Positions 14,205-54,908 of a stretch of 64,000 nucleotides of DNA are shown here, piece by piece. Below the pieces are notes generated by a model. It searched no databases, was not told the origin of the DNA, and saw nothing but the letters and a program-made list of their open reading frames with translations. The DNA is taken from contig JAECRG010000001.1 of the NCBI GenBank assembly GCA_015999875.1, positions 107,330 through 171,329 on the forward strand. Direction: 5' to 3'. This DNA is from Candidatus Saccharimonadota bacterium (GTDB taxonomy: Bacteria; Patescibacteriota; Saccharimonadia; Saccharimonadales; Saccharimonadaceae). Made by a program: the position numbers and the translations under genes. Within the stretch, counting starts at the first letter, position 1. Each line of letters begins with the position of its first letter.

Positions 14205-14289
14205 GCCGGAATCGTGTAGTGGCAATCACAGGAGACTGTAAATCTCCCGCCTTTCGGCTTCGTAGGTTCGAGTCCTACTTCCGGCACCA
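14205..14289 (+). tRNA. tRNA-Tyr (anticodon GTA)
   Basis: gccggaa/ttccggc acceptor, GGAGA-CTGTAAA-TCTCC, long variable arm, CCA. Confidence 0.93.
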
Positions 14290-14312
14290 AAACAGTATTT
14301 TTACGGAAATTG

Positions 14313-14334
14313 CCGCCCTCTGGGGCGGTTTTTT
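14313..14334 (+). terminator. Terminator after tRNA-Thr/tRNA-Tyr pair
   Basis: ccgccctctggggcggtttttt. Confidence 0.75.
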
Positions 14335-14383
14335 CTCTGGCGGTGCTGTCGCTTTAGCGACTTTGGCGGTGTCGGCTTGTATC

Positions 14384-14421
14384 TACGCTATATCTAGCGT
14401 CGGTACACTAGATATAGCGTA
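14384..14421. repeat. 14-bp perfect inverted repeat
   Basis: tacgctatatctag-cgtcggtaca-ctagatatagcgta. Confidence 0.85.
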
Positions 14422-14453
14422 TTCTAGAAATGGGAGACGATTAACACTTTGTC

Positions 14454-15188
14454 TTAGCGGTCGTTACCACGGTATATGTGCTGACCACTCGCGAGAATCT
14501 GCCGTGCTTCGTCGGGCTTTGCGTCGAGCTCGTCTACACTACGGAAACCTAGAGTCATGCTTGTACGAGTTTGTCCTGACGGATTATGCCCAACACCATG
14601 GAACAGGATACCGTTAAATAGTAGTACGTCGCCTTCTCTCATTGGCACTGGTACAGCCTGGTTCTCTAATCCGGCGTATTCTTCGTGCTCGGACATCCAT
14701 GTTCCGCCACCGTTCGCTTGCGGTACACCTACGTATGGCAGGTTGTGCGAACCAGGCACTACTCTTGTCGCACCATTTTCTACTGTAGAATCTTGCAGGT
14801 ATACCGCAGCAGTCATAAGGCCTCTCGAGGGCTGTAGAATATCACGATGCATCCCTTCGGCCGGCTCGCCTTGGCGATTATTGATTGTGGCATGATTGTG
14901 TCTATTTTTAACAAACACCACGTTTGGACCGAGCAATGAGACTAATGCTCCGACGAGCGCCTGGTTGCCGATAACTCTTTTCATGAGTTCGGGGTTGCGA
15001 TCATAAAGACCATACAACTTCTTGTTTGGGTTTTCGGAGTCAAAGTCTCCGCTTGATTTTTCTGCCTCGTCTTCGATAAACTCCCGTATTTCGGTAGTTT
15101 GCTCTGCGTCAAAAACGTTAGACAGCCTGTAGTATCCTTGGTCTCTGTAAAATCTTGCCTGTTCGTGGCTCAATGCTCCGTATTTCAT
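14454..15188 (-). CDS. Phytanoyl-CoA dioxygenase (PhyH)-like 2OG-Fe(II) oxygenase
   Basis: MHRDILQP (HxD), NGATRVVPGSHNLPYVG, distal His and TRTSMTLGFR. Confidence 0.8.
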   Translation of the reverse strand: MKYGALSHEQARFYRDQGYYRLSNVFDAEQTTEIREFIEDEAEKSSGDFDSENPNKKLYGLYDRNPELMKRVIGNQALVGALVSLLGPNVVFVKNRHNHATINNRQGEPAEGMHRDILQPSRGLMTAAVYLQDSTVENGATRVVPGSHNLPYVGVPQANGGGTWMSEHEEYAGLENQAVPVPMREGDVLLFNGILFHGVGHNPSGQTRTSMTLGFRSVDELDAKPDEARQILASGQHIYRGNDR

Positions 15189-15201
15189 GGAGCATATTAT
15201 A

Positions 15202-15735
15202 CTACAATTTACCTAAATAATCAAGAGCTAGATAGGCAACCTCAATGTCCGTCATCTGACCACTGCGTAGTTGCTGACGAAATTCATCAAGAGGCATGAG
15301 TACTAGCTCGGTCTGCTCAGTGTCGGTATCTTGAGGTTCGCCAACCTTCTTGCAGTTTGTGGCCACAAAACAATGGCGCTCCATAGTTGAATAAGCGTCG
15401 TCTAGACACGTACCTATCTCAACAAACTCACCCTCGTAACCAGTTTCTTCGCGAAACTCACGCCCGATTGACTCGAGTGCATTTTCACCCGGATCAAGGT
15501 AGCCACCAGGTAGCTCGTTCAAGACTTTGCCTGGTCCTGGGCGAAATTGGCGAGCCAAGATGATCTCATTGTTGTCGGTCAGCGCGACGACCGCAGCTGC
15601 CGGTCTAGCGTTGTTGATATAAAAATCAGCTTTGTTGCCACGCGGCATCAAAAAATCCACACGGTCAATATCCCACGCGTATTTTTTGTAAACTTGTTCC
15701 CTTTTTAGCACTTTCCAAGGTAGAATCGCCATCAT
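15202..15735 (-). CDS. NUDIX hydrolase (ADP-ribose pyrophosphatase-like)
   Basis: ELPGGYLDPGENALESIGREFREETGYEGEF Nudix box. Confidence 0.88.
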   Translation of the reverse strand: MMAILPWKVLKREQVYKKYAWDIDRVDFLMPRGNKADFYINNARPAAAVVALTDNNEIILARQFRPGPGKVLNELPGGYLDPGENALESIGREFREETGYEGEFVEIGTCLDDAYSTMERHCFVATNCKKVGEPQDTDTEQTELVLMPLDEFRQQLRSGQMTDIEVAYLALDYLGKL

Positions 15736-15741
15736 GCCCCC

Positions 15742-16548
15742 CTATACGTTATGCTTTTTATTATACCGCAGATGGCTCTGTAGTTCCATATCACCATCTG
15801 AAGCCATCCATGTGGCAACGGTACCAATATCCCTGAAAAACCGCTGACCATTATTGTATGCATACAACGCGTCGTGTTCCCATGCTCGGTGTAAGCAGTC
15901 TCTATACAATGACAAAAGTCCATCGTTGCTGGCCCAGGATTGCCTTCGTAAAAAATCCGGATCAATCACTACTGCGCCCGTGCTGCTAGCACGGTAGTTG
16001 CCCTTAACAGGCGCTACATCCTCATCCTTAAACTCGGCGGAATACACTACCTTACCCTGGCTATCGACCGCAAAAGCATCTTCGTTCGGGACACCTCGAT
16101 TCAGGGTAAGCGCGATTGATGCGACGCCGCCGATTTTTTGTTTGAGTGCAAATTGCCTCGTGAATTCCTGAAGGTCTATATCTAGGATTGTGTCGACATT
16201 TTGTACGAGTATCGGCCTAGCCTGATTGGATTTATTTGCATAATCGACGATACTGCCTCCGTGACAAATTTGCCGGTCGCTTCTGGTGACGCTGACATCT
16301 TGGTCGTCGCCATACATATCTTGCACATATTCATAGACGGCTGCCTGGTCTTCGGCCGATATGATGATATCTTGTATATTTTGCTGTCGCAAATTCGCTA
16401 TGTGGTGATCGACGAACTTGACTTTCGGAACTCCGATTTCAAGCAACGCTTTTGCAATACCTATTTCAGGGTCGGACGTAAAAAGCCCATTTAATCGCGT
16501 ACCTCGACCTCCTGCATTGATGTAGCCGATAGAATTTGAAGTTTCCAT
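15742..16548 (-). CDS. Sugar-nucleotide nucleotidyltransferase
   Basis: IGYINAGGRGTRLNGLF N-terminal signature; start METSNS at 16548. Confidence 0.75.
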   Translation of the reverse strand: METSNSIGYINAGGRGTRLNGLFTSDPEIGIAKALLEIGVPKVKFVDHHIANLRQQNIQDIIISAEDQAAVYEYVQDMYGDDQDVSVTRSDRQICHGGSIVDYANKSNQARPILVQNVDTILDIDLQEFTRQFALKQKIGGVASIALTLNRGVPNEDAFAVDSQGKVVYSAEFKDEDVAPVKGNYRASSTGAVVIDPDFLRRQSWASNDGLLSLYRDCLHRAWEHDALYAYNNGQRFFRDIGTVATWMASDGDMELQSHLRYNKKHNV

Positions 16549-16637
16549 AGTATGAATTATGACATCATACGTCATATTTACAATGTATTTGTTATCTGTC
16601 GAGTGTGAAGAGCGCGTAGCGCGTCCGCTATGCCGAC

Positions 16638-16796
16638 CAGAGCCGCGACGCCTCTACTGCCCCCCGCAGTAGGCGAACCACCAGCCAACCCCTTTTCAGC
16701 TAAAAAAAGAAATTCGGCGGGGGAAATCTCAAAAAAGGCAAAGGGGGCGGCTGGTGGGGCGCGTCCGCCTTTCGGCGGACAGGCGGCGCGGCTCAG
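16638..16796. repeat. Cross-shaped inverted-repeat element (two nested stems plus two opposing 7-bp hairpins)
   Basis: Outer 16-nt arms 16638-16653/16781-16796 (2 mismatches), hairpins 16654-16672 and 16763-16780, inner 18-nt arms 16678-16695/16740-16757 (2 mismatches). Confidence 0.8.
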
Positions 16797-16845
16797 ATTA
16801 GCATTTGGCTGCGAAATGGGTTCGGATTTCGGCGTAAAATCGCAC

Positions 16846-16883
16846 CAAATAAAATTGCGACCTTCTGGTCGCTATTTTATTTG
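16846..16883. terminator. Bidirectional intrinsic terminator
   Basis: caaataaaattgcgaccttctggtcgctattttatttg. Confidence 0.75.
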
Positions 16884-16926
16884 ATTTGTTCAAGTCATCT
16901 TCTTTTTGTCTAGTGCTCCAGAGAGC

Positions 16927-17598
16927 CTACATGACCACTTTGCGAGGCTGTTTTACAGTCTTCGTGACGCCTGTAGGCGCTTTTTTCGGTATGAGCAGGG
17001 ACTTGGCTTCTTCCCTGGCCGCATCAGCCATTTCAAGCTCATCTATGCGCTCGTACGCATCTGCCAAGATACGAAGCGACTGTGGATTTTTACGGTCATC
17101 AAACCCTACGGCGAGCTCGAGAGATTCAATCATCTTCTTTTTGTGACCGAGCTTTTCCTGCACTTTGGCATAGGCTATGTGTCGAGATGGAACCGAAGCC
17201 TCCATACTGATCGCCTGTTCAAATGCAAGAGCGGCCTTGTCGTATTTCTCCGTCTCGAAATATATCAGACCGACGTTGTGTAAGCTTGAAGCGCTCGGCT
17301 CAAGGCTCTGCGCAATTTCGAAACACTCTATAGCATCAGGAAACGCCTGCTGCTTGGCATAGAGTATACCAAGACGGTTATAGGCCGTGGCATTGCGTTC
17401 ATCGACACGCAAGATAGTCAGCAACGCCTTCTCAGCACGAAGATACTTTTTATCCTGAAGAGACTCTTGAGCAATTTCCCATAGCCTATCGAGCTTATCG
17501 GCAAATTTGAGCTTGGTCTCAGAGGCCACTTCGTGAATCGTCTGCCTATGAAATACGACAGCGAGACCGATGACTATAAGTAGTAGTAGTCCGAACAT
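16927..17598 (-). CDS. TPR-repeat protein with N-terminal TM
   Basis: ATAYNRLGILYAKQQAFPDAIECFEIAQSLEP...SLHNVGLIYFETEKYDKAALAFEQAI. Confidence 0.8.
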   Translation of the reverse strand: MFGLLLLIVIGLAVVFHRQTIHEVASETKLKFADKLDRLWEIAQESLQDKKYLRAEKALLTILRVDERNATAYNRLGILYAKQQAFPDAIECFEIAQSLEPSASSLHNVGLIYFETEKYDKAALAFEQAISMEASVPSRHIAYAKVQEKLGHKKKMIESLELAVGFDDRKNPQSLRILADAYERIDELEMADAAREEAKSLLIPKKAPTGVTKTVKQPRKVVM

Positions 17599-54873: not shown

Positions 54874-54908
54874 AAATAAAATCGCCCATAGTATGGGCGA
54901 TTTTATTT
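54874..54908. terminator. Bidirectional terminator
   Basis: aaataaaatcgcccatagtatgggcgattttattt. Confidence 0.8.

Follow-up and report, generated by a model that had tools for sequence, protein, structure and literature searches.

The locus behind tRNA-Tyr

The window, a stretch of 64,000 nucleotides from a contig of a Candidatus Saccharimonadota bacterium, carries a tRNA-Tyr gene, three cargo genes on the opposite strand, a cross-shaped block of inverted repeats, a terminator and a TPR gene. The CCA of the tRNA (14289) is separated by 2,558 bp from the end of a second CCA at 16847. This stretch of 2.56 kb (14290–16847) is an integrated element, inserted after the CCA of tRNA-Tyr. The features are listed below; relatives are denoted by locus (L) and genome (G) numbers.

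14205–14289, + strand: tRNA-Tyr (gta), the insertion target (ARAGORN; empty site in G001, G002 and G003); bases 72–73 are CA at 14285–14286, CCA at 14287–14289
14290–14339, + strand: the sole remaining terminal repeat of recombinase-module type (CGGAAATTGCCGCCC..GGGCGGTTTTTTCTCTGG), with a terminator-like hairpin; the same sequence class stands directly after the tRNA CCA in L034, L041, L047, L051 and others
14340–14376, − strand: truncated end B, a 'type 2' side hairpin (GTCGC-TTTA-GCGAC) plus outer arm, matching the inner flank of end A in L046 (GCCAAGTCGCTAAAGCGACACGCC)
14384–14421, no strand assigned: hairpin TACGCTATATCTAGCGT..ACACTAGATATAGCGTA inside end B; a similar hairpin lies at the corresponding place in L046
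14454–15188, − strand: cargo, PhyH-type 2OG-Fe(II) dioxygenase (Pfam PF05721, E 2.5e-25)
15202–15735, − strand: cargo, NUDIX hydrolase (Pfam PF00293)
15742–16575, − strand: cargo, NTP transferase (Pfam PF12804/PF00483), whose start may be further in
16640–16794, + strand: four-way junction of outer helix, side hairpin 1, long inner helix with loop, and side hairpin 2 (folds; partner-swap covariation)
16677–16847, + strand: terminal inverted repeat unit, ~176 bp and near-identical at both ends in intact elements (end comparison)
16714–16738, + strand: conserved inner loop TCGGCGGGGGAAATCTCAAAAAA, the family's most conserved sequence in the order (alignments; scan of genome contigs)
16810–16847, + strand: attachment half-site AAATGGGTTCGG..GTAAAATCG-CA-CCA; the CA at 16843–16844 equals tRNA-Tyr 72–73
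16846–16883, no strand assigned: native tRNA-Tyr terminator, displaced by the insertion; found directly after tRNA-Tyr in L100 (G002) and L101 (G003)
16927–17598, − strand: TPR gene (Pfam TPR), a conserved chromosomal flank outside the element, present in G001, G002 and G003

The outer helix of the cross pairs 16640–16652 with 16782–16794, side hairpin 1 pairs 16654–16660 with 16666–16672 and side hairpin 2 pairs 16763–16769 with 16774–16780, while the inner helix extends over approximately 16677–16695 and 16740–16758 and is closed by a purine-rich loop. Arms, side hairpins and inner loop are all present where the sequence-only reading had placed them. The same holds for the position of the block between a nucleotidyltransferase and a TPR gene, which Pfam bears out, and for its high GC content (61% versus about 38–53% in the surroundings). 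At the search setting used, no inverted repeat of the 64-kb window is listed ahead of the inner arms. When folded as RNA, the region 16600–16890 reaches −142.2 kcal/mol, whereas shuffled sequences average −103.9 (z −7.5; none of 200 shuffles as good). Folded as DNA, 16606–16849 returns this four-way junction from either strand (z −6.0 and −4.8). The feature runs beyond 16796, the end first assigned to it, up to 16847 (GGTTCGG..GTAAAATCG-CA-CCA, the end reading ...GGTTCGGATTTCGGCGTAAAATCG-CA-CCA). The terminator that had been noticed at 16846–16883 is indeed there, but it had been overlooked that it belongs to tRNA-Tyr, 2.56 kb upstream.

In three genomes of the same genus (G001, G002, G003) the element is absent and tRNA-Tyr runs directly into a terminator. 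In G002 and G003 this terminator is the one that follows 16847 in the window, and the TPR gene region comes next; in G001 it differs in sequence from that of the window. The tRNA-Tyr genes of G002 and G003 end in ..GGCACCA or ..AGCACCA, and these two genomes match the block only from 16842 onward. Since the 2,558 bp are present in the window and absent at the empty site of the relatives, the block is the tRNA-distal end of an integrated element. With its insertion at a tRNA 3′ end and an empty site in relatives, the locus has the hallmarks of a tRNA-associated genomic island. The NTP transferase gene was found in only one of 60 other relatives searched.

Within its family the window copy is a decayed one, missing the recombinase and truncated at one end. 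Its end A is complete and both outer junctions are kept. The segment 14290–14339 is the remnant of a module that has lost its recombinase gene and second repeat, and end B, deprived of its core and attachment half, consists of an inner hairpin fused to one recombinase-module repeat. As the module repeat contains GGTTTTTTCTCTGGCGG, which is similar to GGTTTTTCTGGCGG of the element ends, the deletion may have passed through this short similarity. The copy is probably immobile unless helped in trans. The window genome holds no second copy of the block, so that the further copies suggested as a check did not turn up, and its serine recombinases are only distant (26–36% identity). Elsewhere in the window, perfect 17-bp inverted repeats with loops of 1–2 nt lie at 1211–1246, directly 3′ of tRNA-Trp, and at 54874–54908; both are terminator-like.

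A family of inverted ends at tRNA genes

A search of the order with a covariance model picked up homologues of the block in 45 out of 392 genomes, which belong to 29 of its 156 genera; carrier genomes have about 1–7 hits each at E<=0.001. Beyond the order, weaker homologues turned up in 24 of the genomes sampled from the phylum's other classes. Exact matching of the loop sequence across 85,462 species returned 17 stretches, nearly all from Saccharibacteria/Patescibacteria records or unnamed MAGs. No DNA similarity to phages was found, and the only plasmid hits were two weak partial matches to unrelated proteobacterial records. We found no earlier description of the element family in the open-licence PMC literature. 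The genomes are mostly metagenome assemblies, in which contigs often break at repeats.

The matches in relatives occur as inverted pairs 1–3 kb apart. In the fetched loci, 31 units are outward-facing inverted pairs with a CCA-to-CCA distance of 1.3–8.5 kb (median 2.2 kb). Within a unit, both ends have an inverted repeat in common (median 176 bp, 99.4% identical), which in most units starts with the left arm of the inner helix and closes with NNCCA. Just inward of this repeat come the outer-left arm and side hairpin 1, which are not alike at the two ends. Single ends also exist, for example L072 and L073. In L040 (G070) two units with two different recombinases stand in tandem behind one tRNA-Leu, a stacking that has the look of array-like accretion.

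The units face tRNA genes for Leu, Arg, Lys, Gln, Gly, Met, Phe, Ser and Val, to which the window adds Tyr. The two element bases before CCA equal tRNA positions 72–73 in 54 of 58 comparisons (shuffling of loci gives a mean of 17.3 and at most 35; p<=1e-4), a count that includes two L045 rows wrongly paired with the tRNA-Lys of that contig, as the target tRNA of L045 lies off the contig. At tRNA positions 69–71 the match to the element is at or below chance. The unit ends follow the isotype, reading CT-CCA at Lys, AG-CCA at Gln, CG-CCA at Ser and TA-CCA at Arg. At this end, the attachment half-site (GGTTCKAGC..GTAAAA..NN-CCA) resembles the stretch from the T arm to the CCA end of a tRNA. GGTTC stands 19 nt away from NN in the element and 15 nt away from it in the tRNA, and is thus shifted by 4. 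A third copy of NNCCA lies at the junction of the recombinase module and end B. With NN matched and position 71 unmatched, the units have the two-base matched core that attL, attR and attP of a large serine recombinase element would have in common. Because CCA is invariant, this core may measure anything from 2 to 5 bp. A complete end pair behind tRNA-Leu was also seen in L096 (SSHD01000112.1), a 5.8-kb contig binned as Acinetobacter; here NN is CA, mismatching the TA of the tRNA. This assignment is probably a binning error, with host transfer as a possibility.

In 19 of 29 units the tRNA and the proximal end are 1.76–2.20 kb apart, the space being taken by a ~1.8-kb module with inverted repeats of its own. 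A large serine recombinase gene is recognisable in 18 of these 19 long modules; L047 (4702–6521) has a broken copy, L053 a shortened one, and L049 yielded none. L047 and L053 are otherwise intact units, and recombinase decay may therefore be common. The one recombinase that was scanned has the Pfam domains Resolvase, Recombinase and Zn_ribbon, and the catalytic motif is kept in ten aligned recombinases from nine loci. The family hence encodes a large serine recombinase with catalytic YxRxS and zinc ribbon, the gene being absent from the window copy. Element and recombinase co-occur: 20 of 29 genomes with a close recombinase homologue carry the element, compared with 25 of 363 others (Fisher p 9e-15). 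Six recombinase-positive genomes that the model had left out were fetched. In five of them the recombinase lies near a contig end; the sixth (L123) has both sides on the contig and shows the full layout, in which the end has diverged and the recombinase is enclosed by perfect inverted repeats of 174 bp.

In the ten remaining units, the tRNA and the proximal end are only 35–221 bp apart, and this short stretch, without a recombinase, is the tRNA's terminator only or a short remnant. These units make a trans-acting or different enzyme possible. In three recombinase-free loci (L061, L079, L046) the tRNA's own palindromic terminator stands between the tRNA and the proximal end, and it is found also 3′ of the distal end in L061 (both ends) and, almost fully, in L046.

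Pairing in the cross, probably at the level of DNA

When each arm was folded with its own partner or with a partner swapped in from another copy, the own partner gave the better energy for side hairpin 2 (−11.3 versus −6.2 kcal/mol), the inner helix (−27.2 versus −22.7), the outer helix (−17.5 versus −15.6) and a small hairpin before NNCCA (−3.5 versus −2.1), each with p<=0.0005 in a permutation that ignores kinship among the copies. A control segment showed no effect, and the segment between the outer arm and GGTTC gave no pairing signal. Copies from other classes form the same junction from a different sequence. Homologues with a conserved fold, which had been set as a check on the block, therefore exist, and their pairing is kept through compensating changes.

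The kind of pairs is informative about the molecule that folds. In helix registers chosen without favouring wobbles, the helices of the cross show 1293 Watson-Crick pairs besides 16 G·T and 22 A·C; for the acceptor and T stems of the tRNAs at the same loci, the counts are 453 Watson-Crick pairs, 27 G·T and no A·C. Selection on an RNA would favour G·T on one strand; equally rare G·T and A·C are the pattern expected of folded DNA and point to selection at the DNA rather than the RNA level. A structured non-coding RNA had been proposed from the sequence alone. Such an RNA, with a terminator, might by chance have come to ride on mobile DNA, and this reading could draw on the strong fold, the covarying helices and the terminator found 3′ of the outer end in most copies. 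Yet this terminator is the tRNA's own or that of the recombinase module, Rfam returned nothing credible at gathering or permissive thresholds, and G·U-tolerant covariation on one strand was not found, wobbles being as rare as A·C, which is unlike the tRNA stems. Neither strand energy nor wobble counts support an RNA read from the + strand, which is not favoured; the energy test even favours, by a small margin (50 of 75), the strand that reads inward, which leaves some room for an inward-reading RNA. All in all, we consider an RNA unlikely.

Proposed integration route and related systems

The insertion and its empty site, the pairing of inverted ends, the agreement of NN, the linkage to a recombinase and the conservation of the fold are observations; the block itself we read, with a probability of about 0.8, as the tRNA-distal end of a small integrative element that inserts site-specifically in Saccharibacteria and other Patescibacteria. 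Of the earlier suggestions, a hairpin substrate or degenerate mobile element comes closest, in that the block is a structured terminal repeat of an integrative element in a decayed copy, but it is neither attC nor REP. An intact element begins with tRNA-N72N73-CCA, a repeat, the large serine recombinase gene, an inverted repeat and TGG-NN, followed by end B, the cargo genes, end A, NN-CCA and the native tRNA terminator. Ends A and B are inverted, near-identical repeats, each made of a four-way junction of DNA helices and an attachment half-site.

We propose that a circular form carries A-NNCCA-recombinase module-TGGNN-B and that the serine recombinase exchanges strands at N72N73 between the site on the circle and the tRNA end. 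An exchange at NN between such a circle and tRNA-NNCCA-terminator would yield exactly the integrated order seen. The tRNA sequence would remain unchanged, and the module would supply a new terminator. A sharp two-base match beside a constant CCA is what the central dinucleotide of a serine integrase would give. Against this mechanism stand the ten units that lack a recombinase, the distant recombinases of the window genome (26–36% identity) and the GGTTC shift of 4, which is similar but not identical to the 5 bp reported for serine integrases, whose attP has the zinc-domain motif that much more distant from the core than attB (PMC3783163). No circular form or joined attachment site was seen. 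With less firmness, we suggest that the four-way junction acts as folded DNA, not RNA, and serves as an accessory signal for recombination, replication or single-strand transfer. It is also possible that the cross insulates the cargo from the promoter of the tRNA.

That the cross marks an origin or a transfer signal of the circular form (a single-strand origin or a competence-uptake fold) instead of a recombination signal would agree with the DNA-level pairing, the presence at both ends and the conserved loop flanked by A-runs. As no replication protein was noticed in the units and the adjoining attachment half-site suggests a link to recombination, we regard it as rather doubtful. Far less probable is a transposon, of DDE type or another, whose ends are long inverted repeats and whose insertion duplicates 5 bp of the target (NNCCA). 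Inverted repeats and an apparent duplication are present, but the third NNCCA at the junction of module and end B is unexplained by a simple target duplication, the matching is confined to tRNA ends, and the unit ORFs inspected revealed no transposase but a serine recombinase in 18 of 19 long modules. It is similarly hard to believe that each end is a solo element in its own right (MITE- or REP-like), with A and B flanking the cargo by chance or selected to insulate it from tRNA transcription. The strong folding of the ends and the occasional single end (L072, L073) would fit; on the other hand, outward pairs dominate, their ends are near-identical within a unit, NN matches at both ends, and the whole 2.56 kb is absent at the empty site.

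The integrative element that we favour shares features with several known systems. Tycheposons and other tRNA-associated islands are likewise small cargo-carrying elements at tRNA 3′ ends, with defence and metabolic genes among their load. However, tycheposons use tyrosine recombinases and rebuild the tRNA 3′ end, whereas the present units encode a serine recombinase and have no more than NNCCA in common with the tRNA, positions 69–71 being unmatched. Casposons have inverted terminal repeats and insert at tRNA 3′ ends as well; the serine recombinase sets the present family apart, and no Cas1 or polymerase was noticed in the units, whose cargo was sampled. With integron cassettes it has in common mobile gene units, folded-DNA ends of little sequence but conserved shape, and tandem accretion (L040). 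Nevertheless, instead of one direct attC of ~60–140 bp per gene there are inverted pairs of ~176–240 bp (31 outward pairs), insertion is at tRNA CCA ends, and the recombinase in the tRNA-adjacent module is of the serine type, with no integron tyrosine integrase noticed. REP/RAYT elements with many dispersed copies and a Y1 transposase are a poor match, as the window genome has one copy. There is likeness also to elements of large serine recombinases (phage and ICE integrases), with an enzyme of ~500–550 aa with Resolvase, Recombinase and zinc-ribbon domains, a short exchange core, half-sites that flank two bases, and a tRNA-like motif shifted between element and target (19 versus 15 nt; 5 bp reported, PMC3783163). 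In contrast to these, the family targets the CCA end of many tRNA isotypes, has two inverted attachment sites and a recombinase module with its own inverted repeats, and its ends are folded four-way junctions.

More tentatively, and at odds that we place somewhat below even, the family could be a phylum-wide class of Patescibacteria in which the end junctions work in recombination or single-strand DNA transfer, the serine recombinase reads the universal CCA of tRNAs, and cargo is swapped behind almost any tRNA without damage to it. Genomes of Patescibacteria are tiny, and little is known about gene gain in them. The cross together with the NNCCA end offers a marker for finding gene-sized mobile cassettes, and DNA cruciform ends are kept across several classes. 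The mechanism is testable: the serine recombinase may use the two bases before CCA as core and could thereby insert behind many tRNAs. As integration tools, too, such recombinases are of interest.

The cargo, sampled rather than surveyed, includes metabolic genes as well as restriction-modification systems, a TIR protein of the Thoeris type and a retron-type reverse transcriptase. The reverse transcriptase (L033:2406–4630 in G018; best PADLOC hit RT_VI, E 3e-49) lies beside an EamA transporter. It was considered as the mobilising enzyme and rejected, as it occurs in one unit only and looks like retron-type cargo. Defence cargo stands behind tRNA genes in L043:2834–7295, L046:3141–6264 and L076:614–2446. 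These units carry type II restriction-modification systems, that of L043 being NgoFVII-type with a helicase and Vsr, and the cargo of L046 includes a ThsB-type TIR protein (Thoeris-type).
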